From Streptomyces sp. NRRL F-5727 (GTDB lineage: Bacteria > Actinomycetota > Actinomycetes > Streptomycetales > Streptomycetaceae): a stretch of 54,121 bases of DNA. The translations under genes were made by a program, and so were the position numbers. The stretch is from the NCBI RefSeq assembly GCF_000719555.1, contig NZ_JOGX01000043.1, positions 1 through 54,121 on the forward strand, read 5' to 3'. The notes beneath the pieces are model-generated. The model saw only the letters and a list, made by a program, of their open reading frames with translations, had not been told where the DNA came from and did no database searches. This document shows positions 31,737 through 46,116 of the stretch, in pieces. Numbering within the stretch: the first letter of the stretch is position 1; each line of letters begins with the position of its first letter.

Positions 31737-32393
31737 TCAGGAGCGGGCGCGGGCGCGCAGTTCCCTGCCGAGGGCGTACGCGGCCCACAGGTCGTCGCCC
31801 TCGTACCCGGCGCCGGCCAGTGCGCGCAGCGCCGGGGAGGCGTTGACGGCGACCGTGTGCCGCAGGACGAAGAACAGCGGCACGTCGGAGCCGGAGTCGC
31901 CGTAGGCGACGCAGGAGTCCCGGTCGATGCCGAGGGCGGTGCGGAGGCGGTCGACGGCGGTGACCTTGTCCTGGGGGACGAGGATCCTGGCGGGGTCGGG
32001 CGCCGCGCGGAACGGGGGCGGCGGGAAGCCGGAGGCCACCACCTCGTCGACGCCGAGGCCGCGGAGCCGGTCGGCGAAGAAGTCCGGCGACATCGTGACG
32101 ACGACGGCCCGGTCCCCCCTCTCCCGGATGTCCGCGAGGACGTCCGGGAGCCCGCCGATCCACGGGGCCCCGTCGAACGCCTCCGCGACGACGCCCGGGG
32201 TCAGCTCCCGCCACAGCCCGTGCAGGGCGGCGGCGAAGCCCCGGGTGTCGATGCTCCCGGCGGCGAACTCGCCCTCCAGTGCGCGGAGTTCGTCCAGACA
32301 GCCGAGCCGGGCGGCGATCTCCAGGCTGGCCGAGGTGTCCCTCAGCAGCGTGCCGTCCATGTCGAAGACGTGCAGCAGCCGTCCGTCCTCCAC
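31737..32393 (-). CDS. HAD-IB family phosphatase (SerB-like fold)
   Basis: The 218-residue protein has HAD motif I D11-M-D13-G-T-L, motif II in VVVTMSPDFF, a Lys in LVPQDKVTAV and motif IV YGDSGSDVPLF. The helical cap between motifs I and II (residues ~20-90) places it in subclass IB, with phosphoserine phosphatase-like enzymes. The substrate is probably a small phosphorylated metabolite. The GTG start at 32393 is chosen because GGGGAGG lies upstream and motif I begins at residue 9. It follows the FAD oxidase gene on the same strand after 59 bp and may be co-transcribed; a role in the nearby catabolic cluster is possible but not shown. Confidence 0.85.
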   Translation of the reverse strand: MEDGRLLHVFDMDGTLLRDTSASLEIAARLGCLDELRALEGEFAAGSIDTRGFAAALHGLWRELTPGVVAEAFDGAPWIGGLPDVLADIRERGDRAVVVTMSPDFFADRLRGLGVDEVVASGFPPPPFRAAPDPARILVPQDKVTAVDRLRTALGIDRDSCVAYGDSGSDVPLFFVLRHTVAVNASPALRALAGAGYEGDDLWAAYALGRELRARARS

Positions 32394-32452
32394 CGTGCCT
32401 CCCCGGGTCCGGGGATCAGCGTACGTCGCGGGCCGGGGCGGGGTGCTCGGGG

Positions 32453-33847: not shown

Positions 33848-33931
33848 GGGGGTGTCCTTCGGATCGCGGAGGAGCCCGGTCGCGGGGCTCCTTCCGAGGT
33901 GCCGCCCATGAGACCGGGCCGCGCCCGGCAA

Positions 33932-33950
33932 GGTCAATGGTGTTGACGTA
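33932..33950. promoter_or_regulatory. TetR-type operator overlapping the FAD oxidase -35 box
   Basis: GGTCAATGGTGTTGACGTA contains GTCAA-TGGTG-TTGAC. Read on the minus strand, the 21 bases covering 33933-33953 equal 41351-41371 exactly. TTGACC (complement 33932-33937) can be the -35 box, with TCTCAT (complement 33908-33913) 18 bp later, so a bound repressor would block transcription of the oxidase. Confidence 0.75.
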
Positions 33951-33988
33951 AGGCGGCCGCCGAGGGCCCGGGAGGGGCCGCCGGCGGT

Positions 33989-34858
33989 TCAGCCCCGCGG
34001 GTCCCAGCGGTCGAGGAGCCCCTCCGCGATGCGGCGGGCGCCGGGGTCGTACCGCTGCGCGAGGGTGCGGAAGGTGCGCTCGGCGGCCTCGGCGGGCCAC
34101 TCCTCGGGGAGGTGTTCGGCGGGCAGGTACGGGTCGCGGCGGACGAGTTCCAGCCAGTCGGTGTGGAGCAGCAGTTGGCGGCCGAGGTCGTCGCGGGCGT
34201 CGGCGGAGGCCGGTGCTTCGCCGTCCCAGCGGGCGAGGAAGGCGCGGTATCCGGCGGCGACGGCGTCGAGGTCGAAGGCGGTACGGAGCAGGGCGCCCGC
34301 CTCGGTCGGCGCGGCGGCCTGCCCGTGGAAGGCCCTGATACGGTCCCCGAGCCCGAGCTCCGCCGCGAGGGGCGCGACGTCGACGCGGCCGGGGGCGGCC
34401 CACAGGCCGCTCTGGAGCGGGCCGAAGCCGGCCCAGACGAGCCGGGAGCGCAGGTCGTGACGCTCCCGGCGCCAGGATTCGGGGAGCGAGAAGCCGACGA
34501 GGGTCCAGGTGCCGTCCCAGGTCCGGTTGACGGCGCCGGTGCGCCGGACGCGCTCCTCGCCGTCGGCGAGCACGGCGGCGGCGCGGTCGGTGAGCGAGAA
34601 GTACATGCGGCGGCCGCGGCGGTGCCGGTCCAGGAGTCCCCGCCCGACCATGCGGGTCAGCGTGGAGCGGACGGCGTCCTCGCCGACGTCGGCGCGGGCG
34701 AGGGCGTCGATGACACCGGCCGAGGAGAGCGCGGTGCCGGTGCCGAGCACATGGATGCCGAAGAAGCTCAGCATCAGGGACTGGGGGCGGGGCGCGGAGC
34801 CGCGGCCGCCGGTGTCGGGCTCGGCGTCCGGGGTGCGCCGAGGGGCGGGTGGGATCAC
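33989..34858 (-). CDS. PaaX-family transcriptional repressor
   Basis: The 289-residue protein has the PaaX layout: a winged-helix N-terminal domain (SLMLSFFGIHVLGTG...VRSTLTRMVGRGLL, about 30-75), the middle segment TWTLVGFSLPESWRRERHDL and the C-terminal DLGRQLLLHTDWLELVRRDP with LPAEHLPEEWP. PaaX represses phenylacetate catabolism and is displaced by phenylacetyl-CoA; homologues sense other acyl-CoA thioesters. It is divergent from the SDR/amidohydrolase/acyl-CoA ligase/MaoC operon, which makes an acyl-CoA formed by that ligase its likely effector. GTG 34858 is a provisional start; the first ~28 residues are Pro/Arg-rich. Confidence 0.88.
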   Translation of the reverse strand: MIPPAPRRTPDAEPDTGGRGSAPRPQSLMLSFFGIHVLGTGTALSSAGVIDALARADVGEDAVRSTLTRMVGRGLLDRHRRGRRMYFSLTDRAAAVLADGEERVRRTGAVNRTWDGTWTLVGFSLPESWRRERHDLRSRLVWAGFGPLQSGLWAAPGRVDVAPLAAELGLGDRIRAFHGQAAAPTEAGALLRTAFDLDAVAAGYRAFLARWDGEAPASADARDDLGRQLLLHTDWLELVRRDPYLPAEHLPEEWPAEAAERTFRTLAQRYDPGARRIAEGLLDRWDPRG

Positions 34859-34922
34859 GGGGGACAGCGTAGGGGGGCGGGTTCCGGGCGCGGAGGCCCC
34901 GGCAGAAATATTCGGCACTTTA

Positions 34923-34951
34923 TTGACCGCAGACGGGAAGTTGCCTAACTT
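34923..34951 (+). promoter_or_regulatory. promoter of the SDR-ligase-MaoC operon with overlapping dyad
   Basis: TTGACC (34923-34928), a 17-bp spacer and TAACTT (34946-34951) form a good promoter. AAGTT-GCCT-AACTT (34938-34951) is a dyad overlapping the -10 box and is a natural operator candidate for the divergent PaaX protein. Surrounding DNA is AT-rich for this window. Confidence 0.6.
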
Positions 34952-35032
34952 TGGCGCCGCCGGTGCGTGTGCGAGGCGGCGATCCCGCGCCCCGCCCCCG
35001 GCGACCCTCGACTCACGGGAAGGACCCCGTCC

Positions 35033-36004
35033 ATGACCTCTCCTCAGGTGAATCCGGTGCATCCGGTGCGCCCGGCGGACCCGACAGACCCGGTGAATCC
35101 GGTGGATCTCACCGGCAAGGTGGCCGTCGTCACCGGCAGCGGCCGCGGCCTCGGCCTCGCCTACGCCCGTTCGCTGGCCGCCGCCGGCGCAGCCGTCGTC
35201 GTCAACGACGTGGACGCCGAGGCCGCCGGCGCGGCGGTCAAGGAGATCACCGAGGCGGGCGGCCGGGCCGTCGCCGAGGTGGTGCCGGTCGGCTCGACCG
35301 AGGCCGCCGAGGCGCTCGTCGCCCGGGCCGTCGACAGCTTCGGCCGGATCGACACGATGGTCACCAACGCGGGCGTGCTCCGCGACCGGGTGCTGTGGAA
35401 GATGACCGACGACGACTTCGACACCGTCGTCCAGGTCCACCTGCGCGGCACCTTCACCTGCGTCCGCGCCGCCGTCGAGCGCATGCGCGAGCAGGGCGAC
35501 GGCGGCCGGATCGTCGTCGCCGGCTCCCCCGCCGGACAGCGCGGCAACTTCGGCCAGACCAACTACGCCGCCGCCAAGGCCGGCATCGCCGCCATGGTCC
35601 GCACCTGGGCGATGGAGCTGGGCCGCGCGGGCATCACCGCCAACGCGGTCATCCCGGTCGCCGCGACCGCCATGACCAAGACCGTCCCGGTCTTCGCCCC
35701 GCACATCGAGGCCCTGGAGCGGGACGGCACGCCGTTCCCGGACAGCCTGCGCAAGGGCGAGGGCTTCGGCACCCCCGAGGACGTCGCCGGCCTGGTCGCC
35801 TTCCTCGCCTCGGACGCCTCCGCCGGCGTCACCGGCCAGTGCATCGGCATCGGCGGCGACAAGCTCGCCCTCTGGTCGCACCCGCAGGAGATCGCGGTGG
35901 CGTACGCGGACGGCGGCTGGAGCGCGGACGCGATCGCCGCCGCCTGGCCGGTCTCCGTCGGCCGCGCCCCGGAGACCTACGGCATCCCCGCCCCGGTCCT
36001 GTGA
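35033..36004 (+). CDS. SDR-family oxidoreductase (3-hydroxyacyl-CoA dehydrogenase-like, MFE-2 type)
   Basis: The 323-residue protein has the NAD-binding motif VVTGSGRGLG (about 32-41), VVVNDVDAEAAG, NAG near residue 118, and the catalytic S165...Y178-x-x-x-K182. The VVND sequence and long C-terminal tail (after GGDKLALWSHPQEIAVAYAD) are like the dehydrogenase unit of peroxisomal multifunctional enzyme type 2, which with a MaoC hydratase runs two beta-oxidation steps; a MaoC gene lies in the same operon. The N-terminus carries a Pro-Val repeat (NPVHPVRPADPTDPVNPVD) encoded by short DNA repeats and absent from usual SDRs. GGAAGGA precedes the ATG. It overlaps the next gene by four bases. Confidence 0.87.
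   Translation: MTSPQVNPVHPVRPADPTDPVNPVDLTGKVAVVTGSGRGLGLAYARSLAAAGAAVVVNDVDAEAAGAAVKEITEAGGRAVAEVVPVGSTEAAEALVARAVDSFGRIDTMVTNAGVLRDRVLWKMTDDDFDTVVQVHLRGTFTCVRAAVERMREQGDGGRIVVAGSPAGQRGNFGQTNYAAAKAGIAAMVRTWAMELGRAGITANAVIPVAATAMTKTVPVFAPHIEALERDGTPFPDSLRKGEGFGTPEDVAGLVAFLASDASAGVTGQCIGIGGDKLALWSHPQEIAVAYADGGWSADAIAAAWPVSVGRAPETYGIPAPVL
35051..35104 (+). repeat. degenerate 9-bp repeats in the SDR N-terminus
   Basis: Words of the form (A)ATCCGGTG(C) recur and encode NPV/HPV/DPV units (residues 7-24). The array is in frame and upstream of the first strand of the Rossmann fold, so it extends the N-terminus without disturbing the fold. Confidence 0.7.
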
Positions 36005-36885
36005 GCGGCGCCGTGATGGACCTCGACGCGCTCGTCGCCATCGACATGCACGCCCACGCGGAGGTGTCCGCGAAGGGCGCGGCGTCGCTCTCGGCCGAAC
36101 TGGACGCCGCCGCCGGCGCGTACTTCAAGGCGGAGCACCGGCACCCGACGCTCCCGGAGATCGCCGCGTACTACCGCGAGCGGTCGATGGCCTGCGTGGT
36201 CTTCACCGTGGACGCGGAGTCGACCACCGGCACCGAGCCGGTGCCGAACGAGGAGATCGCCGAGGCGGCCGCCGAGAACCCGGACGTCATCATCCCGTTC
36301 GCCGGCGTCGACCCGTACAAGGGCAAGGCGGCGGTTCGTCAGATCCGGCGGCTCGTCAACGAGTTCGGGGTCAAGGGCGTCAAGTTCCACCCGAACCTGC
36401 AGGCGTTCCACCCCAACGACCGGATGGCCTACCCCCTCTACGAGGCCATCGAGGACGCGGGCGCGATCGCGGTCTTCCACACCGGCCAGACCGGCATCGG
36501 CGCGGGCGCGCCGGGCGGCGGCGGGATCCGGCTGAAGTACTCGAACCCGATGGACGTGGACGACGTCGCCGCCGACTTCCCGGGCATGCGGATCGTCCTC
36601 GCCCACCCGTCCTTCCCCTGGCAGGACGAGGCGCTGGCGGTGGCGACGCACAAGCCGAACGTGTACATCGACCTGTCCGGCTGGTCGCCGAAGTACTTCC
36701 CGCCGCAGCTGGTCCGCTACGCGAACAGCCTCCTGCAGGACAAGGTCCTGTTCGGCTCGGACTATCCGCTGCTCACGCCGGACCGCTGGCTCGCCGACTT
36801 CGCCGGGCTGCCGCTCAAGGACGAGGTGCGACCGAAGATCCTGAAGGACAACGCGGCCCGTCTGCTCGGCCTCACCACCACCTGA
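36001..36885 (+). CDS. amidohydrolase family 2 protein (decarboxylase/hydrolase fold)
   Basis: The 294-residue TIM-barrel protein shows the metal-binding H17-A-H19 (AIDMHAHAE), VKGVKFHPNLQAFHPND with the central His, FHTGQTG, RIVLAHPSFPW and LFGSDYPLLTPDRW with the catalytic Asp. This family contains decarboxylases such as gamma-resorcylate decarboxylase and hydrolases of lactone or ring-cleavage products. GTG 36001 overlaps the SDR stop; ATG 36016 is an alternative. It sits between the SDR and the acyl-CoA ligase and presumably makes or processes the acid that the ligase activates. The reaction cannot be fixed from sequence alone. Confidence 0.87.
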   Translation: MSGAVMDLDALVAIDMHAHAEVSAKGAASLSAELDAAAGAYFKAEHRHPTLPEIAAYYRERSMACVVFTVDAESTTGTEPVPNEEIAEAAAENPDVIIPFAGVDPYKGKAAVRQIRRLVNEFGVKGVKFHPNLQAFHPNDRMAYPLYEAIEDAGAIAVFHTGQTGIGAGAPGGGGIRLKYSNPMDVDDVAADFPGMRIVLAHPSFPWQDEALAVATHKPNVYIDLSGWSPKYFPPQLVRYANSLLQDKVLFGSDYPLLTPDRWLADFAGLPLKDEVRPKILKDNAARLLGLTTT

Positions 36886-36896
36886 GGGAGGACGCC

Positions 36897-38426
36897 ATGC
36901 GCAACCAGGGCATCGGCTCCTGGCCGGCCCGCCGGAACCGCAGGAGCCCCCGCCGGACCGCCCTCGTGCACGAGGGCCGTTCGCTCGACTACGCGACGCT
37001 GCACGACCGCTCCACCCGCCTCGCCCACGCCCTGCGGGGCGCGGGCGTGGAGCGCGGGGACCGGGTCGCCTTCCTGGGCCCGAACCATCCGGCGTACCTG
37101 GAGACGCTGTTCGCCGCCGGGCTCCTCGGGGCGGTCTTCGTGCCGCTCAACACCCGCCTCGCCGCAGCGGAGTTGGCGTACCAGCTGACGGACTCCGGCA
37201 GCCGGGTGCTGGTGCACGCCCGGCAGCCGGAGGAGAAGGTGGCCGGACCGGCCTCGGCCGCCGGGACCGCCACCCTGCTCTCCGTCGAGGGCGAGGGGCC
37301 GGGCCTGGTGTACGAGGAGCTGCTCGCCGCCGCGCCGGCGGAGCCGCTCGACGAGGAGGTGGGGCACGACGACGTCTGCCTGATCATGTACACCTCGGGC
37401 ACCACGGGCCGGGCGAAGGGCGCCGTCCTCACCCACGGCAACATCGTCTGGAACAGCCTCAACGTCGTCGTCGACACCGACGTCGCCGCCGATGAGGTGG
37501 CCCTCGTCGGCGCCCCGCTCTTCCACACCGGCGCGCTCGGCATGAGCTGCCTGCCGACCCTCCTCAAGGGCGGCACGGTGGTGCTGGAGTCGGCCTTCGA
37601 CCCGGAGCGGGCCCTGCGCCTCATCGGGCGCCACGGCGTCACGGCGCTCTTCGGGGTGCCGACGATGTACGACGCGATGGCGGCCGCCCCCGGCTGGCGG
37701 GAGGCGGACCTGACCAGTCTGCGGCTCCTGCTGTGCGGCGGGGCGCCCGTCCCGAGCCGGACCGCCCGCGCCTACCTGGAGCGGGGGCTCGCCTTCGTCC
37801 AGGGGTACGGCATGACCGAGGCGGCGCCCGGCGCGCTGATCCTGGACCGTGCCGACTCGGCGCGCCGTGCCGGCACGGCGGGCGTCCCGCACTTCTTCAC
37901 CGACGTGCGGGTGCTGCGCGAGGACGGCTCGGAGGCGGCGCCCGGCGAGAAGGGCGAGGTCGTGGTGGCGGGGCCGAACGTGACCCCCGGCTACTGGAAC
38001 CTGCCGGAAGCGACCGCCGCGGCCTTCCGCGACGGGGGGCGTTTCCGTTCGGGCGACGTCGCCACCGTCGACGCCGACGGCTACGTCACGCTCGTCGACC
38101 GCCTCAAGGACATGATCATCTCGGGCGGGGAGAACATCTACCCGGCCGAGGTCGAGGAGGCCCTGCTCCGGCACCCGGACGTCGCCGAGGCGGCCGTCAT
38201 CGGCGTCCCCGACACCCGCTGGGGCGAAGTCGGCCGCGCGGTCGTCGTCCCGCGCGCCGGGACCTCCCCGACCGCCGAGGAGCTGCTCGCCCACCTCGGG
38301 GGCCTGCTGGCCCGCTACAAGATCCCGCGGAGCGTCGTGCTCGCGCCCGAACTGCCCCGCAACGCCACCGGAAAGCTGCTGAAGGGCCCCATCCGGGACC
38401 ACTACGGCAGCTCCCCCGCCCACTGA
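36897..38426 (+). CDS. AMP-binding acyl-CoA synthetase (ligase)
   Basis: The 509-residue enzyme is an ANL-family acyl-CoA ligase. P-loop YTSGTTGRAKG starts near residue 165, QGYGMTEAAPG lies in the A5 region, GRFRSGDVATVDADGYV and DRLKDMIISGGENIYPAEVE mark the hinge, and the C-terminal catalytic Lys (~493) is in NATGKLLKG. It converts a carboxylic acid, ATP and CoA to acyl-CoA, AMP and PPi. The length fits medium-chain or aromatic acid ligases. GGGAGGA is directly upstream of the ATG. Located after the amidohydrolase-2 and before the MaoC gene, it probably starts a CoA-dependent degradation route; its product is a candidate PaaX effector. Confidence 0.93.
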   Translation: MRNQGIGSWPARRNRRSPRRTALVHEGRSLDYATLHDRSTRLAHALRGAGVERGDRVAFLGPNHPAYLETLFAAGLLGAVFVPLNTRLAAAELAYQLTDSGSRVLVHARQPEEKVAGPASAAGTATLLSVEGEGPGLVYEELLAAAPAEPLDEEVGHDDVCLIMYTSGTTGRAKGAVLTHGNIVWNSLNVVVDTDVAADEVALVGAPLFHTGALGMSCLPTLLKGGTVVLESAFDPERALRLIGRHGVTALFGVPTMYDAMAAAPGWREADLTSLRLLLCGGAPVPSRTARAYLERGLAFVQGYGMTEAAPGALILDRADSARRAGTAGVPHFFTDVRVLREDGSEAAPGEKGEVVVAGPNVTPGYWNLPEATAAAFRDGGRFRSGDVATVDADGYVTLVDRLKDMIISGGENIYPAEVEEALLRHPDVAEAAVIGVPDTRWGEVGRAVVVPRAGTSPTAEELLAHLGGLLARYKIPRSVVLAPELPRNATGKLLKGPIRDHYGSSPAH

Positions 38427-38443
38427 CCTTCTGGAGAACCCCC

Positions 38444-38899
38444 ATGGCCCTCACCGTCCACGGCATCGACGGGATCCGCGCCCAGGCCGGCGCCGACCTC
38501 GGCCACAGCTCCTGGGTGGAGATCGCCCAGTCCCGCGTCGACACCTTCGCCGACGCCACCGACGACCACCAGTGGATCCACGTCGACCAGGAGCGGGCCG
38601 CCGCCGGCCCCTTCGGCGGCACCATCGCCCACGGCTACCTCACCCTCTCCCTCCTCATCCCCATGTGGAGCGAGCTGCTCCAGGTCGAGGACGTCTCGAT
38701 GGCCGTCAACTACGGCCTGAACAAGGTGCGTTTCCCCTCCCCCGTGCGCGTCGGCTCCAAGATCCGCACCCACGGTCGGATCGCCGCGGTCGAGGACGTG
38801 CGCGGCGGCGTCGAGGTCGTCGTCGACCTCACGGTGGAGATCGACGGCTCCGAGAAGCCCGCCTGCGTGGCCCAGGCGGTCTACCGCTTCCACGCCTGA
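38444..38899 (+). CDS. MaoC-like (R)-specific enoyl-CoA hydratase
   Basis: The 151-residue hotdog-fold protein has the hydratase-2 motif FADATDDHQWIHVDQERAAA with D41 and H46 as expected catalytic residues and GGTIAHGYLTLSLL following. NYGLNKVRFPSPVRVGSKIR is typical of Streptomyces and mycobacterial MaoC single-domain hydratases. It adds water to an enoyl-CoA to give a (R)-3-hydroxyacyl-CoA, the substrate for the SDR in this operon. CTGGAGA lies before the ATG. No acyl-CoA dehydrogenase or thiolase is adjacent, so the cluster completes only part of a beta-oxidation cycle unless others supply these steps. Confidence 0.92.
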   Translation: MALTVHGIDGIRAQAGADLGHSSWVEIAQSRVDTFADATDDHQWIHVDQERAAAGPFGGTIAHGYLTLSLLIPMWSELLQVEDVSMAVNYGLNKVRFPSPVRVGSKIRTHGRIAAVEDVRGGVEVVVDLTVEIDGSEKPACVAQAVYRFHA

Positions 38900-39023
38900 C
38901 CTCCCGCCCCGAAGAGGCGGCCGCCGCCCCGGCGACCGCCCCTTCGGCATGCCCCCGGCCGGACAGCGGGACGGTCACGCGCCGGGTACGGTTCTCCCCG
39001 CGCGCGGGACGAGGGAGGCGGAC

Positions 39024-40604
39024 ATGGCGGTGGAGCGGCCCGACGGGGTGGTGGGGCCTCTGGAGCGGGGGCTCGCCGTGGTGCGGGCCGTGGTCGACGG
39101 CGGCGGGCGGCGGGGGCTCGGGGAGGTGGCGCGGGCGACCGGGCTCGCCCGGGCCACGGTGGACCGGGTCGCCACCACGCTCACCGTCCTCGGGGTGCTG
39201 CGCGCCGAGGGGCGCGACCTGCTGCTCGCGCCGGGCGCGGCCGCGCTCGGCAACGCCTATCTGGACTTCTGCGGGCTGCCCGGGCTCCTCGGGCCGCATG
39301 CCGCCGCGCTCGCCGACGAGCTCGACGCGCCCGTGTCGCTCGCCGTCCCCGACGGGGACGGGGTCCGGTTCCTCACCCAGGCGACCCGGCGCCGGGCCAT
39401 GGCCATCTCGTTCCGGCCCGGCGACCTGCTGCCGGCCGAACGCTGCGCGCCCGGCGCCCTGTTCGCCGCCGGCTGGGACGCGGAGCGGTTCGCCGCGTGG
39501 CGGGAGTCGCACGGCGACGACGGCGGGTTCCCGGCGCGGGTGCGGGCGGCCCGCGAGCGGGGCGCGGCCGTCGACGACCAGCTGATCGAGCCGGGCCTGG
39601 TGGCCGTCGCCCTGCCGGTACGGGACCCGGCGGGGGCCGTCGTGTGCGCGGTCAGCGCCGTCAGCCACACCAGCCGGCACGACGCCGCCGCCCTGGAGGC
39701 GCTGGCCCTCGCCCCGCTCGCCCGGACCGTCGCCGCGATGGAGGCCGCGCTCGCCGCCGGACCACCGGCCGCCGCCGGGCCCGCCGCCCTGGCCGCCGGG
39801 CCCGCGCTCAAGGAGGAGCTGGGGTCGGGCTACCTCCAGTCGCTGGCCCGGGGGCTCGACGTGCTGCGCGCCTTCGGAGCCGTACGCGGGCCCGCCCGGC
39901 TCACCGATCTCGCCCGGCTCGCCGGGCTTCCCCGGGCGACCGCCCGGCGCTCGCTGATCACGCTGCGGCACCTGGGGTACGTACGGGAGGAGGCCGGGGG
40001 TTTCGTGCTCCTCCCCCGCGTCCTCGAACTCGGCCACGCCCTGCTGTCCGCGCTCACCCTCCCCGAGATCGCCACCCCGCACCTGGTCCGACTGGTGCGC
40101 GCCGTCCGGGAGTCGGCGTCGGTGGCGGTGCTCGACGGCGACGACATCCGGTACGTGGCGCGGGTGGCGGGCAGCCGCCTCCTGCACATCGACATCGTGG
40201 TGGGCACCCGCCTGCCCGCGTACGCCACCTCGATGGGGCGGGTGCTGCTCGGCGCCCTGCCGGAGGCGGAGCGGGACGCGCGGCTCGGGCGGATCACCCC
40301 GGAGGCCCTGACCCCCCGGACCCTGACCGGGCCCGAGGAGCTGCGGGAGGCCGTGGCGGCGACCGCCGGGCGCGGGTTCGGGTGGGTGGAGGAGGAGCTG
40401 GAGGAGGGGCTGCGGTCGATCGCGGTGCCCGTCCGGGACGGCGCGGGGCGGGTGGTGGCGGCGCTCAACGTCGCGCTGCACGCGGGCCGTTGCTCCCCGG
40501 AGGAGAGCCTGGACGCGCTCCTGCCACGGCTTCGGGAGACCGCCGGAGCCATCTCCGCGGACCTGGCGGCGGTGGGCCGTCACGCCCCCGTGGGGCGGTT
40601 CTGA
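39024..40604 (+). CDS. tandem double IclR-family regulator
   Basis: The 526-residue protein is two IclR proteins in one chain. The first half has a winged-helix (GPLERGLAVVRAVV...EVARATGLARATVDRVATTL, about 12-60) and effector domain up to ~240. The second half starts SLARGLDVLRAFGAVRGPAR (about 276) with RLAGLPRATARRSLITLRHL, and its effector domain (SVAVLDGDDIRYVARV, ATSMGRVLLGAL) ends near 510. Usual IclR regulators are ~250 residues and bind as dimers of dimers, so this fusion could bind DNA as a fixed dimer. The second half resembles PcaR/PobR-like aromatic-acid regulators. GAGGGAGG precedes ATG 39024. It probably controls the acyl-CoA cluster. Confidence 0.9.
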   Translation: MAVERPDGVVGPLERGLAVVRAVVDGGGRRGLGEVARATGLARATVDRVATTLTVLGVLRAEGRDLLLAPGAAALGNAYLDFCGLPGLLGPHAAALADELDAPVSLAVPDGDGVRFLTQATRRRAMAISFRPGDLLPAERCAPGALFAAGWDAERFAAWRESHGDDGGFPARVRAARERGAAVDDQLIEPGLVAVALPVRDPAGAVVCAVSAVSHTSRHDAAALEALALAPLARTVAAMEAALAAGPPAAAGPAALAAGPALKEELGSGYLQSLARGLDVLRAFGAVRGPARLTDLARLAGLPRATARRSLITLRHLGYVREEAGGFVLLPRVLELGHALLSALTLPEIATPHLVRLVRAVRESASVAVLDGDDIRYVARVAGSRLLHIDIVVGTRLPAYATSMGRVLLGALPEAERDARLGRITPEALTPRTLTGPEELREAVAATAGRGFGWVEEELEEGLRSIAVPVRDGAGRVVAALNVALHAGRCSPEESLDALLPRLRETAGAISADLAAVGRHAPVGRF

Positions 40605-40625
40605 CGCGGCACCGGAGAGGTGTTC

Positions 40626-41342
40626 CTACGCCTCGGCCTTCGCCGGGTCCGGGCGCAGGCCCGCCAGTGCCGTCAGCATGAGCTCCAGGGCGAAGGGGTA
40701 GCCGCTCTCCCGCATGTCGGCGGCGAGGAGCGGGAACGTGGCCGCGATGTGCGGGTGGGTCTCCGCCGGGAGGCGGCCGTAGACCTCTCCCCAGACCTCG
40801 GCGTCCGCCTCGCGCGCGGCCGGCGGCATCGCCCCGGCGGCGGCGTCCTGGGCGGCGAAGGCCAGCGCCTGGTCGACGAAGGCGTGGTAGGCGCGGACGG
40901 CCAGGGGGTCGGGGAAGCCGCCGTCCCGCAGGATGCCGAGGATCCTCTCGACCGCCCGCGTCTCGTGGCAGCGGCCGGTCGTGCGGTGCGCGGCGAGGAG
41001 GGCGGCCTGGGGCTGGGCGACGTAGGAGGCGTGGATGCGCAGGCCCAGCGCGCGCAGGTCCGCGCGCCAGTCGCCGGTCGCCTCCCAGCCCTCCTGCGCC
41101 CGGCCGATGACCTCGTCGGCGAGCGCGAGGAGCAGGGCGTCGGTGTTGCGGAAGTACCGGTAGAGGGCGCTGGGGTCGGCGCCGAGGGCCGCGCCCAGCC
41201 GGCGTACGGAGAGGGCTTCGGCGCCGTGCTGGGCCACCAGGCGCAGCGCGGTGTCGACGATGAGCCGTTCGGAGAGGACGGCGCCCTGCTTGGTGGGGCG
41301 GCGGCGCTGCCGGCTTCCTTCGGGTACGACGCGTGCGGACAT
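40626..41342 (-). CDS. TetR-family repressor
   Basis: The 238-residue regulator has a TetR HTH: RLIVDTALRLVAQHGAEALS followed by VRRLGAALGADPSALYRYFR (about 27-67), and an all-helical ligand domain with HRTTGRC and AVRAYHAFVDQALAFAAQ. It is divergent from the amidohydrolase-3 gene. Its own start is probably leaderless: on the minus strand TTTACA (complement 41373-41378), a 17-bp spacer made of the operator, TAAGGT (complement 41350-41355) and the ATG 7 bp later. The operator recurs before the FAD oxidase gene at 33.9 kb. The ligand is unknown, perhaps an amide or amine. Confidence 0.92.
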   Translation of the reverse strand: MSARVVPEGSRQRRRPTKQGAVLSERLIVDTALRLVAQHGAEALSVRRLGAALGADPSALYRYFRNTDALLLALADEVIGRAQEGWEATGDWRADLRALGLRIHASYVAQPQAALLAAHRTTGRCHETRAVERILGILRDGGFPDPLAVRAYHAFVDQALAFAAQDAAAGAMPPAAREADAEVWGEVYGRLPAETHPHIAATFPLLAADMRESGYPFALELMLTALAGLRPDPAKAEA

Positions 41343-41349
41343 GGCCGGG

Positions 41350-41378
41350 ACCTTACGTCAACACCATTGACGTGTAAA
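41350..41378. promoter_or_regulatory. divergent promoters with 19-bp TetR operator
   Basis: ACGTCAACACCATTGACGT (41355-41373) has perfect 7-bp arms around CACCA. It forms the spacer of the tetR promoter (TTTACA-N17-TAAGGT, minus strand). Read forward, TTGACG at 41367-41372 with TTCCAT 18 bp later can serve the amidohydrolase gene. A single bound repressor would shut both promoters. Bases 41351-41371 are identical to the site before the FAD oxidase. Confidence 0.78.
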
Positions 41379-41546
41379 CGGCTCGCGGGCTTCCATGGCG
41401 CCCGTCACCTGAACGGCGACGCCGGCCCGTTCCGGCCGCCGACGGGTCCGACCCGTCCGACGGCCGACCCCGCGGCGCTCCGCGCTCCGACCGGCCGTCG
41501 TCCGCCCCGCGCCCCCCGGGCGCGCCGCACGCAAGGGAGCCGCCGT

Positions 41547-43202: not shown

Positions 43203-44333
43203 CTAGCCGGGCCGTACGGAGGACTCCCGTACGTCGAGCCTGACCGGCACGAGCGATCCGCCGGTCTCCTGGAGGCCCTGTTCGAGTACGGCGACGAGGT
43301 GGGCGATCCCCGCCTCGGCGACCGCGTCGGGGCGCAGGCTCAGCGTCGTCACCGGCGGGTCGGTGTGCACGGCGGTCTCGTCCTCGCTGACACAGACGAG
43401 GAGCAGGTCGCCGGGGACGTCGTAGCCGTGCCGGCGGGCCGCGTCCAGCACGAGCGGCGGACTGGCCTCGGCGACCACGAGGAGGGCGTCGGGGCGTTCG
43501 GGACCGGCACCCAGGGCGGTCTCCACGGCCTGGATCACCGGCCCGTTGCCGGGCTCGGCGGCCCGCACGGTCAGCTGCGGCAGTCCGTGCGCGGCGCACC
43601 ACGCGCGGTGCGCCGCGTCCACCTCGCGGTGGAAGCGGGTGGTGCTGTCGGGGACGACGAGCACCGGCCGGCGGGCCCCCTGGGCGTGGACGTGGTCCAG
43701 GACCTGCCCGACGGCGTCGGCCGCGTCGACGTCCACCCAGTGGGCGCCCTCCCGGCCCTCCACGGACCGGTCGCTGAAGACCGGGATGCGGGCGGCCAGC
43801 AGGTCCTCGACGATCCGGTCGTCGGCGACGGGGTCGGCGACGACCACGGCGTCGAGGGGCAGCGCCGCCCACTCGCTCTGCAGCGAGCCGGCGGGCAGCA
43901 GCACCACCGCGTAGCCGCGCGCGAGCGCGGTGGCGGCGGTGGCGCCGGTGAGCCGGGCGAAGTACGGCGACTCCAGGAAGGTCCACGGGGTGTCGGCCAG
44001 CTCGCCGACGACGTAGCCGATCAGCCGGGCCCGTCCCGCGCGCAGCTGGCGCGCGGTGGCGTTGGGCCGGTAGCCCATGCGGCGGGCGGTCTCGCGGGCC
44101 TTCTCCCGGATCTGGGGGGAGAGCCGGCCGGTGCCGTTCAGGGCCGCCGACACGGTGGTCTTGGACAGTCCGGCCTCGCGCGCCACGTCGACGAGACGGA
44201 CGCGCGGGGCGGGCTGTGCGGTCCCCCGGGTCCCGCCGCGCGCCTCGTTCCGCCGTCCGCCGGGCGCGTCCCGCCCCGGGGTGGTCGCGTGCCGCTCCGG
44301 GGCCGCTCCGCCGTGCTCTGAAGCTTCGGTCAT
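43203..44333 (-). CDS. LacI-family repressor of the ABC importer
   Basis: The 376-residue regulator has an extra N-terminal tail of about 43 basic/Gly residues, then the LacI HTH (VRLVDVAREAGLSKTTVSAA, hinge helix PNATARQLRAGRARLIGYVV) and a periplasmic-binding-like effector domain with VRPDAVAEAGIAHLVAVLEQ near the end. The binding pocket cannot be read for a sugar or peptide ligand. ATG 44333 lies at the right edge of the divergent region; the ribosome binding site is weak. It lies head-to-head with an Opp-type importer whose promoter contains the perfect palindrome TGCGGGAACGTTCCCGCA, a natural operator for it. The tail-first end is convergent with the amidohydrolase gene. Confidence 0.9.
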   Translation of the reverse strand: MTEASEHGGAAPERHATTPGRDAPGGRRNEARGGTRGTAQPAPRVRLVDVAREAGLSKTTVSAALNGTGRLSPQIREKARETARRMGYRPNATARQLRAGRARLIGYVVGELADTPWTFLESPYFARLTGATAATALARGYAVVLLPAGSLQSEWAALPLDAVVVADPVADDRIVEDLLAARIPVFSDRSVEGREGAHWVDVDAADAVGQVLDHVHAQGARRPVLVVPDSTTRFHREVDAAHRAWCAAHGLPQLTVRAAEPGNGPVIQAVETALGAGPERPDALLVVAEASPPLVLDAARRHGYDVPGDLLLVCVSEDETAVHTDPPVTTLSLRPDAVAEAGIAHLVAVLEQGLQETGGSLVPVRLDVRESSVRPG

Positions 44334-44361
44334 GGGGCTGATGCTGCCATCCCCGTGACCA

Positions 44362-44416
44362 TTGCAAAACCGTTCCCGCAAACTGGCCGGAACTCTTGTG
44401 CGGGAACGTTCCCGCA
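44362..44416 (+). promoter_or_regulatory. LacI-type operators and promoter of the ABC importer operon
   Basis: TGCGGGAACGTTCCCGCA (44399-44416) is a perfect 18-bp palindrome with the central ACGT of LacI operators. A weaker copy, TTGCAAAACCGTTCCCGCAA (44362-44381), lies 37 bp upstream. The strong site fills the spacer of TTGTGC (44396-44401)-N17-AATACT (44419-44424), so binding would block the importer promoter; the two sites together allow cooperative binding or looping. Confidence 0.75.
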
Positions 44417-44475
44417 TCAATACTCGCTCCATCCCCCCAGCGCCCGTCACTACACCCGTAAAGGGGTGGGTCTGC

Positions 44476-46116
44476 ATGCGCACGCCCAGTTTCACCGCCC
44501 TCGCCTGTACCGCCGCCCTCGCGGCCTCCCTCACCGCCTGCTCCGGCGCCACCCAGCCCCAGCCGGGCACCTCGGGCACGGGAGCCGACTTCAAGGTCTC
44601 CCCCACCTCGCCGGCCGCGAAGGGCCCGCTCGACTCCTTCACCTGGTCGCTCTACGCGGAGCCGTACACCCTCGACTACGCCCTCGCGTACGACTACCCG
44701 CCCAACACCGTGCTCGCCAACGTCTGCGAGCAGCTGCTGCGGGTCACCCCCGACCTGAAGATCGAGCCCGGTCTCGCGGTCAAGTGGGACCGGCCCGACC
44801 CGCGCACCCTCGTCTACACCCTGCGGCCCGGCGTGAAGTTCCACGACGGCACCACCCTGACCGCCGACGACGTCGTCGCCTCCCTGAAGCGGCAGATGGA
44901 TCCGGCCACCGGCTCCCCCTGGGGCTCCGCGTTCAAGACCGTCGACGCGATCGAGAAGACCGGCCCGCTGGAGGTGACGATCCGCCTCGGCAAGGCCGAC
45001 GCCCTCTTCCACGAACTCCTCGCCGCCTCCCCCGGCACCGTCGTCAGCGCCGCCTCCCTCACGAAGGAGGGCAAGGACTACGGCACCCCCGAGGGCGAGC
45101 TGAACTGCACCGGCCCGTACGCGCTGGAGAAGTGGGCGCAGGGCGACAGCATCACGCTGAAGAAGCACCCGGACTACTGGGACACGAAGCTCGCCCCGAA
45201 GTCGGAGAAGGTGCGGTTCACCTTCATCGAGGACGCCGCCGCCCGCGCCAACGCCTTCCTCTCCGGCACCTCCGACGGCGGCTACATGGTCCCGTCGGCC
45301 TCCTTCGCCCAGCTCCGCGGCAGCGGCAAGGGCTCCCTCCTCTTCGGCCCCAACACCGCCGCCGCCAACCTGGCGGTCACCGACTTCAAGGGCACGCTCG
45401 GCGACGTGCGGGTCCGCAGGGCGCTGTCGATGGCGCTCGACCGGAAGAACATCGTCAAGGCGGCCGCCGGCGGCGTCGGCGTCCCCGCCAAGGCCCCCGC
45501 CGCCCGCGGCGCGTGGGCGCTCGTCCCCGAGAAGACCGCCACCCTGTACGACACGCTGCCCGAGCCCGCGTACGACCTGGCCGCCGCGAAGAAGCTGGTC
45601 GAGGAGGCCAAGGCCACCGGACGGAAGGTCACCCTCGCGACCAGCTCGATGGCCCCCGAGATCAGCGTCGTCGCCAACGCCGTACAGGCGGCCGGGCGGC
45701 AGATCGGCCTGGACGTGACGCTCAAGCCGGTCTCGCCGGACGCGTACAGCAACATCTTCGTCGACCCCGCCGCCCGCGAGGGCCTCGACCTGGTCATCAC
45801 CAACGGCTACGACAACACCCCGGACCCGCTGGAGTTCTACCAGTACCTGCGCACCGGCGACTTCGGGAACTACGGCAACTGGTCCGACGCCGAGTACGAC
45901 GTGGCCTTCGACCGCGCCAACACCGAGTACGACCCCGCCAAGCGCGCCGAACTCACCGCGAAGCTGCAGGAGATCGCGCTCGACCGGCTGCCGGTCATCC
46001 CGGTCTACGAGGCGCCCTACTCCGTCTTCCTCGGCAAGCGGATCACCGGCGCGCCGACCGGCATCGCCCAGCTCTACTACCCGTGGGCCGCGACGATCGG
46101 GGCCGCGCAGTCATGA
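44476..46116 (+). CDS. ABC transporter solute-binding lipoprotein (peptide/nickel/opine type)
   Basis: The 546-residue protein has a lipoprotein signal with lipobox L19-T-A-C22. The SBP_bac_5 fold shows TWSLYAEPYTLDYALAYDY, DPRTLVYTLRPGVKFHDGTT, NCTGPYALEKWAQGD and VRRALSMALDRKNIV. The family delivers oligopeptides, dipeptides, nickel chelates, opines or other solutes to Opp/Dpp-type permeases. AAGGGGTGGG lies upstream of ATG 44476. The start of the operon contains the LacI operators. It overlaps the first permease by four bases. The ligand is unknown; the catabolic neighbours suggest a carbon or nitrogen source rather than nickel. Confidence 0.93.
   Translation: MRTPSFTALACTAALAASLTACSGATQPQPGTSGTGADFKVSPTSPAAKGPLDSFTWSLYAEPYTLDYALAYDYPPNTVLANVCEQLLRVTPDLKIEPGLAVKWDRPDPRTLVYTLRPGVKFHDGTTLTADDVVASLKRQMDPATGSPWGSAFKTVDAIEKTGPLEVTIRLGKADALFHELLAASPGTVVSAASLTKEGKDYGTPEGELNCTGPYALEKWAQGDSITLKKHPDYWDTKLAPKSEKVRFTFIEDAAARANAFLSGTSDGGYMVPSASFAQLRGSGKGSLLFGPNTAAANLAVTDFKGTLGDVRVRRALSMALDRKNIVKAAAGGVGVPAKAPAARGAWALVPEKTATLYDTLPEPAYDLAAAKKLVEEAKATGRKVTLATSSMAPEISVVANAVQAAGRQIGLDVTLKPVSPDAYSNIFVDPAAREGLDLVITNGYDNTPDPLEFYQYLRTGDFGNYGNWSDAEYDVAFDRANTEYDPAKRAELTAKLQEIALDRLPVIPVYEAPYSVFLGKRITGAPTGIAQLYYPWAATIGAAQS

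Follow-up and report, generated by a model that had tools for sequence, protein, structure and literature searches.

We analysed a 54,121-nucleotide stretch of Streptomyces sp. NRRL F-5727 (assembly GCF_000719555.1, contig NZ_JOGX01000043.1; hereafter, the window), in which the gene for a TetR-family regulator (tetR) adjoins that for an amidohydrolase-3 (YtcJ-like) protein, and a more distant gene encodes a DAO-type, FAD-dependent amine oxidase-like protein (Table 1). Two copies of one palindromic operator, O1 and O2, lie 7.4 kb apart, both within intergenic promoter regions of these genes. An earlier sequence-only reading had proposed that the TetR protein represses its own gene, the amidohydrolase gene and the remote oxidase gene; comparison of the operator across relatives, as detailed below, strongly supports such a regulatory link.

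Operators and promoters in the window

The segment at 33933–33953 reads GTCAATGGTGTTGACGTAAGG and that at 41351–41371 reads CCTTACGTCAACACCATTGAC, its exact reverse complement. Both the 21-bp inverted match and the dyad around CACCA noted in the sequence-only reading thus proved exact when the letters were read, the 7-bp arms of O1 (ACGTCAA and TTGACGT) matching at all pairs. O2, placed in the register of O1, pairs at six of seven arm positions with one mismatch, a detail beyond that earlier account. Searching the 7.95-Mb genome for the O1 core with up to two mismatches returned just O1 (none) and O2 (one); four further matches, each with three mismatches, bring the total at up to three to six.

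Each copy was also said to overlap a TTGAC –35 box with a –10-like hexamer 18 bp on, and these elements are present on both the oxidase and the amidohydrolase side (Table 1). On the oxidase side, all 16 sequences compared retain TTGAC and, 18 bp on, TCTCAT (14 sequences) or TCTGAT (two). For tetR, whose promoter the earlier reading had left unnamed, the best –35/–10 pair is TTTACA-N17-TAAGGT; only 7 nt separate this TAAGGT from the ATG, which makes a leaderless transcript probable. This geometry recurs among 74 dyads upstream of TetR genes in the 80 loci introduced below: a TTGACA-like hexamer (at least four of six positions) precedes 63 of them and, with a 17-bp spacer, a –10 element of the form TANNNT follows 68, reading TAAGGT in 57. 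Judged by sequence, a palindromic operator lies over the regulator's own predicted promoter.

Conservation and gene specificity of the operator

Relatives (G, C and L numbers below denote genomes, contigs and loci) were drawn from a first set of 20 stretches, each spanning a TetR match and at most 20 kb long, taken from 19 genomes; from a second set of 80 loci of named genomes, kept from 191 confirmed in a TetR search that started from a 12-TetR alignment; and from a genus set of 199 genomes, 135 of which were matched in the TetR search at E ≤ 1e-20. The 80 loci hold 75 copies of this TetR and five of a sister TetR (Nonomuraea L219, L221 and L226–L228). For every gene, 300 bp of upstream sequence was scored with a symmetric matrix built from 88 sites, a positive being a score above all 821 control open reading frame upstreams. 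As this matrix had included oxidase sites, a held-out matrix was made from 59 sites of the 65 loci without the oxidase.

By matrix score, the site stands upstream of TetR in 79 of the 80 loci (74 of 75 once the sister type is set aside), upstream of an APC permease gene in 39 of 39, and upstream of the oxidase gene in all 15 loci where one lies beside TetR. The latter count is unchanged with the held-out matrix, which gave the 15 oxidase sites 24.1–32.5 bits while no control exceeded 10.1, and these sites end 71–87 bp before the ATG. Conservation of the match in relatives, the check that the sequence-only reading had itself named, therefore held. The further question of whether the dyad always accompanies all three genes was answered in part: it stands by all but one TetR and by every oxidase beside a TetR, but most loci (65 of 80) have no oxidase, and the amidohydrolase-3 gene carries the site in 32 of 71 cases. 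The split follows the APC gene: where a locus lacks it, 32 of 32 amidohydrolase genes have the site, and where it is present, 0 of 39 do, the site then standing before the APC gene that precedes the amidohydrolase.

Eight further gene classes never scored above controls in the 80 loci: PaaX (0/6), SDR (0/10), amidohydrolase-2 (0/9), acyl-CoA ligase (0/8), MaoC (0/9), IclR (0/10), LacI (0/23) and the ABC binding protein (0/24). An amidase in L186 reached 15.8 bits, above controls, but the matching word lies inside a neighbouring coding region.

In nine stretches (L067–L075; TetR identity 81–92%, tblastn), amidohydrolase-3 adjoins TetR with the dyad between them at zero to two mismatches. The pattern NNGTCAAYGNNGTTGNCNT had 36 matches in 17 of the 19 genomes versus three for its reversed form, and GTCAAYGNNGTTGWCRT had 81 in 69 of the 199 genomes versus nine. 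Of these 81, 61 have a TetR homologue listed in the genus-set search no more than 1.2 kb away; the other 20 comprise seven oxidase, amidohydrolase or APC sites, two sites before DUF3237 genes, and 11 unassigned matches, about the control expectation. A looser dyad search, with 7-bp arms, a free spacer and one mismatch allowed, was uninformative, matching in 191 of the 199 genomes, and the fixed-spacer-base pattern was used instead. The two dyads upstream of DUF3237 genes are unlinked to TetR (L146 near 10389 and L147 near 9527; G143:C22:275389 and G076:C21:31527), and the DUF3237 (PF11578) match was made in L147; such a gene is a possible further regulon member.

All 19 genomes tested contain oxidase matches at E ≤ 1e-60, 26 in total, of which seven are close (76–100% identity) and 19 distant (65–71%), the latter being core paralogues; that of the window genome is G000:C21:53689-55074. 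With the held-out matrix, the site was found upstream of seven of seven close copies and of none of the 19 core paralogues. The 15 locus copies and the seven genus copies share two genomes (L167 = G143, L176 = G004) and so represent 20 distinct sequences, and in a 39-row oxidase tree these 20 site-bearing copies form one side of a branch with a support of 100/100. In G175, the oxidase is encoded on contig C12 and TetR on C81, at least ~200 kb apart assuming that the contigs meet at the ends nearest to the two genes, and the oxidase gene keeps its site; beside it, an APC permease gene followed by an amidohydrolase gene has a site as well, with four mismatches. G015 has a site just past TetR (L071:9600-9618), at the position where the oxidase starts in G004 and G038. 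No convincing gene reads from that site and no close oxidase copy was found in this genome; the site looks like an operator relic.

Table 1. Positions of genes, operators and predicted promoters within the window
Feature	Coordinates	Strand	Remarks
DAO-type FAD-dependent amine oxidase-like protein, 464 aa	32453..33847	-	PF01266; second copy of core-genome paralogue
Predicted oxidase promoter	33908..33937	-	TTGACC (in O2), N18, TCTCAT
Operator O2	33931..33949	.	19-bp near-dyad AGGTCAATGGTGTTGACGT, upstream of FAD oxidase; 18/19 identical to O1
PaaX-type regulator	33989..34858	-	Variable block, no operator
SDR	35033..36004	+	Variable block, no operator
Amidohydrolase-2	36016..36885	+	Variable block, no operator
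Acyl-CoA ligase	36897..38426	+	Variable block, no operator
MaoC dehydratase	38444..38899	+	Variable block, no operator
PcaR-type IclR protein, 526 aa	39024..40604	+	Two matched stretches
TetR-family regulator, 238 aa	40626..41342	-	PF00440, PF02909
Predicted tetR promoter	41350..41378	-	TTTACA (41378-41373), N17, TAAGGT (41355-41350); spacer holds most of O1
Operator O1	41355..41373	.	Perfect 19-bp dyad ACGTCAACACCATTGACGT, between tetR and amidohydrolase-3 gene; read directly
Predicted amidohydrolase promoter	41367..41396	+	TTGACG (in O1), N18, TTCCAT; window sequence only
Amidohydrolase-3 (YtcJ-like), metal-dependent, 544 aa	41547..43181	+	PF07969; relatives of 3igh/3icj

Gene products, gene order and a sister regulator

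Domain matches agree with these assignments: the regulator has an N-terminal TetR helix-turn-helix (PF00440, 49.1 bits against a cut-off of 24), and the enzymes match PF07969 at 360 bits (amidohydrolase-3) and PF01266 at 199 bits (the DAO-type FAD oxidoreductase domain of the oxidase). Across 20 aligned amidohydrolase-3 sequences, including the window's, H67, H69, K289, H343, H345 and D443 are invariant and, by analogy, may be metal ligands. A predicted fold from this 20-row alignment (mean pLDDT 50.7) was left unused. Homologues of the amidohydrolase carry generic names or none among 120 listed of 7991. For the oxidase, none of the 13 NCBIfam models listed reached its cut-off (best TIGR03329, 226.7 of 632.8 bits; pipecolate oxidase, 120.5 of 600), and no PuuB model is among these 13. 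The APC permease of the related loci matches PF13520 and has relatives in the PDB; named amino acid or polyamine transporter models were matched below their cut-offs.

The order of the genes varies between loci. A block encoding the SDR, amidohydrolase-2, acyl-CoA ligase and MaoC proteins separates TetR from the oxidase in seven of the 15 oxidase loci (L151–L154, L158, L167, L168), accompanied in most of these by PaaX (no PaaX match in L154). The other eight (L161, L164, L165, L171, L176, L178, L182, L211) have no such block between the two genes and gaps of up to ~2 kb (L164). The 7.4-kb distance in the window is thus an interruption, whichever the direction of evolution. In G004 and G038, TetR is flanked by two sites, one towards the amidohydrolase and one towards the oxidase, and the block does not intervene; G098 and G143 have the layout of the window minus IclR; and in G166, the amidohydrolase and oxidase genes diverge from an interval with two sites, TetR lying ~4 kb off with a site of its own.

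The PcaR-type IclR protein of the window appears to be a tandem IclR, and 10 of the 80 loci have a homologue of it next to TetR. At 43203–46116, the window encodes a LacI-type regulator and a family-5 ABC binding protein, which adjoin the amidohydrolase gene in 23 and 24 of the 80 loci, respectively, and carry no operator. Closely after the oxidase gene comes an HAD-IB phosphatase gene (31740–32402); L152, L153, L154 and L168 hold 89–91% homologues downstream of their oxidase.

The sister TetR (57–62% identity) is associated with sites that end in TTGGC, in six of the 19 genomes. In the window genome, it is encoded at G000:C10:95091-95825 (L085; 62%) with the operator variant GTCAACGGCGTTGGCAT, beside a gene resembling saccharopine or carboxyspermidine dehydrogenase. 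This pair of L085 recurs in L086, L149 and L150, and is found in G000, G004, G007, G162 and five Nonomuraea. L148 has a site with an APC permease gene on one side and such a dehydrogenase-like gene on the other. A fourth site in G166, ~3 kb beyond TetR, precedes a flavin amine oxidase gene of the polyamine-oxidase/LSD group (L077:11626-13026). A reading of this site as a plain operator copy was rejected, as its terminal TTGGC matches the sites found with the sister TetR; the sister regulator may read it. In the same genome, a PF01425 amidase gene adjoins the APC permease gene, and in L186 one lies near the amidohydrolase gene.

Proposed regulation and its relation to known systems

We consider it highly probable that one TetR autorepressor controls its own gene, the amidohydrolase gene and the remote oxidase gene through the shared dyad, and that the oxidase was recruited later. 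A TetR dimer would bind the dyad, which occupies the 17 bp separating –35 from –10 in the predicted tetR promoter and covers the –35 element at the predicted amidohydrolase and oxidase promoters. Since a dimer bound there would overlap promoter elements on both sides, we infer repression, in which the three promoters would be shut off together until a small ligand, presumably an amine or amide, releases them. The oxidase would stem from a duplication and be related to the core FAD oxidoreductase; with its operator copy, it would have entered an older regulon of TetR and amidohydrolase, which in many species would also include the APC permease. The catabolic block between TetR and the oxidase would account for the 7.4-kb distance, and the operator would keep the oxidase under control even on another contig.

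Some observations weigh against this proposal. The close oxidase copy occurs in seven of 199 genus genomes, a count scoped to copies at E ≤ 1e-228, and is thus not a core member of the regulon. TCTCAT and TTCCAT are poor –10 matches. One TetR locus of the 80 (L205) has no site, and the five Nonomuraea loci with the sister TetR lower the count for this TetR to 74 of 75. A polyamine-oxidase homologue near TetR in L162 is without a site by matrix score. Lastly, relatives share ancestry, so that the counts are not independent events.

Might the match between O1 and O2 have arisen by chance? GC-rich DNA often holds long repeats: two of 40 order-3 Markov sequences contained one of 21–22 bp and the window itself has nine further direct 21-mer copies, which makes repeat length by itself weak evidence. 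Set against this, the modelled probability of the AT-rich operator word is ~1e-15 per position, no other genome copy exists at two or fewer mismatches, and the conservation of the site in relatives already refutes coincidence, leaving it a negligible probability. Binding of the dyad by a neighbouring PaaX, IclR or LacI protein instead of TetR is also very improbable. The PaaX gene does lie directly upstream of O2, but the dyad accompanies TetR in 79 loci, of which six have PaaX, 10 IclR and 23 a LacI match; moreover, the sister TetR carries a variant with one half-site changed to TTGGC. PaaX and IclR were rejected as the binder, as the dyad tracks TetR and those genes occur in few loci. A further alternative treats the whole stretch as one pathway, in which an aldehyde-derived acid enters the acyl-CoA ligase/MaoC/SDR block under separate PaaX control. 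It could draw on the position of the block between TetR and the oxidase in seven of 15 loci, on homologous blocks (61–73%) near L161 and, in G004 and G038, on the far side beyond the amidohydrolase gene, and on the genus set, where four of five amidohydrolase-2 copies with at least 90% identity adjoin a site-bearing oxidase. Yet the block genes are without operator, amidohydrolase-2 relatives occur in 74 of the 199 genomes (E ≤ 1e-120), mostly without this oxidase, versus seven with the second oxidase, the fifth copy (90%) is in an oxidase-free genome (G179), and the block relative of G166 is ~1.1 Mb from TetR. We judge the one-pathway scenario unlikely; as a matter of regulation, the sequence-only suggestion that the acid feeds into this operon went unsupported, and by its distribution the block is best described as an occasional neighbour, not a regulon member.

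Regarding the chemistry, the proposed amide-to-amine-to-aldehyde route is plausible from the Amidohydro_3 and DAO-type domains and from the APC permease in relatives, since a permease under the same site fits amine catabolism; amide cleavage before oxidation would be one candidate order. The closest nameable described relatives of the oxidase are predicted gamma-glutamylpolyamine oxidoreductases, with orthology inferred from context, and this likeness would place oxidation before amide cleavage. Under the same regulon, a PuuB-like oxidase would then act first on an N-acylated (for example, gamma-glutamyl) amine, which the amidohydrolase deacylates afterwards. Consistent with such an order, the oxidase is a paralogue (65–71%) of the core FAD oxidase, whose gene in the window genome adjoins ABC permease and solute-binding protein genes. 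Against it, no gamma-glutamyl ligase was noted near the loci, though no search was aimed at one, and we know of no tested gamma-glutamyl activity of this Amidohydro_3 subgroup. In S. coelicolor, SCO5671 is a predicted gamma-glutamylpolyamine oxidoreductase and SCO5667-70 a predicted polyamine ABC transporter, which favours the reverse order; in the other direction, SCO5671 was alone among the predicted polyamine genes in showing no strong induction by polyamines (PMC5403932). SCO5671 would be the orthologue of the core oxidase paralogue. On balance, we hold reversed chemistry to be rather doubtful, if less so than the one-pathway scenario.

Taken together, the APC permease, amidase, polyamine-oxidase and dehydrogenase-like neighbours point to the catabolism of amines or polyamine derivatives. 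Tentatively, and with somewhat less than even confidence, the TetR loci may represent an undescribed amine-salvage regulon, in which TetR senses an N-acyl amine or its amine and controls uptake by the APC permease present in 39 of the 80 loci, amide cleavage and, in some species, oxidation by a duplicated oxidase recruited through gain of the 19-bp operator; this TetR and its sister may have split an ancestral polyamine-type regulon. We rate this wider idea lower because the polyamine-oxidase site of G166 is of the sister type.

A search of the open-access literature returned no description of this regulator, operator or gene set. For the uncharacterised amidohydrolases and amine oxidases of many Streptomyces genomes, the work supplies an operator of defined sequence and a regulon open to testing; as the operator accompanies a gene 7 kb off or on another contig, it could be used to find further pathway genes.

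Parts of this system resemble described ones. NfdA is an N-substituted formamide deformylase. It is listed with other PF07969 amidohydrolases in PMC13081902, and it is likened to the window amidohydrolase at family level; the nearest solved relatives of the latter (3igh, 3icj) are uncharacterised. PuuB and SCO5671 are likened to the oxidase by gene context alone: the core paralogue lies by ABC transport genes, and SCO5671 is numbered next to the predicted polyamine ABC system (PMC5403932), whereas the window oxidase belongs to a separate clade, has its own operator and is associated with the amidohydrolase. EpuRI and EpuRII, which govern ethanolamine and polyamine genes in S. coelicolor, are likewise dedicated regulators of amine use in Streptomyces but are different regulators (SCO1614, SCO5656) with different targets (PMC9397018). 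Local autorepressors of the TetR/TetA type share with the window regulator the helix-turn-helix and TetR_C_1 domains and a palindromic operator over divergent promoters that include the one for their own gene, and class-D TetR structures are among its PDB matches. In TetR/TetA, the target is a drug exporter; here, the operator sequence is another, and the predicted targets are catabolic genes together with a remote, sometimes unlinked oxidase.

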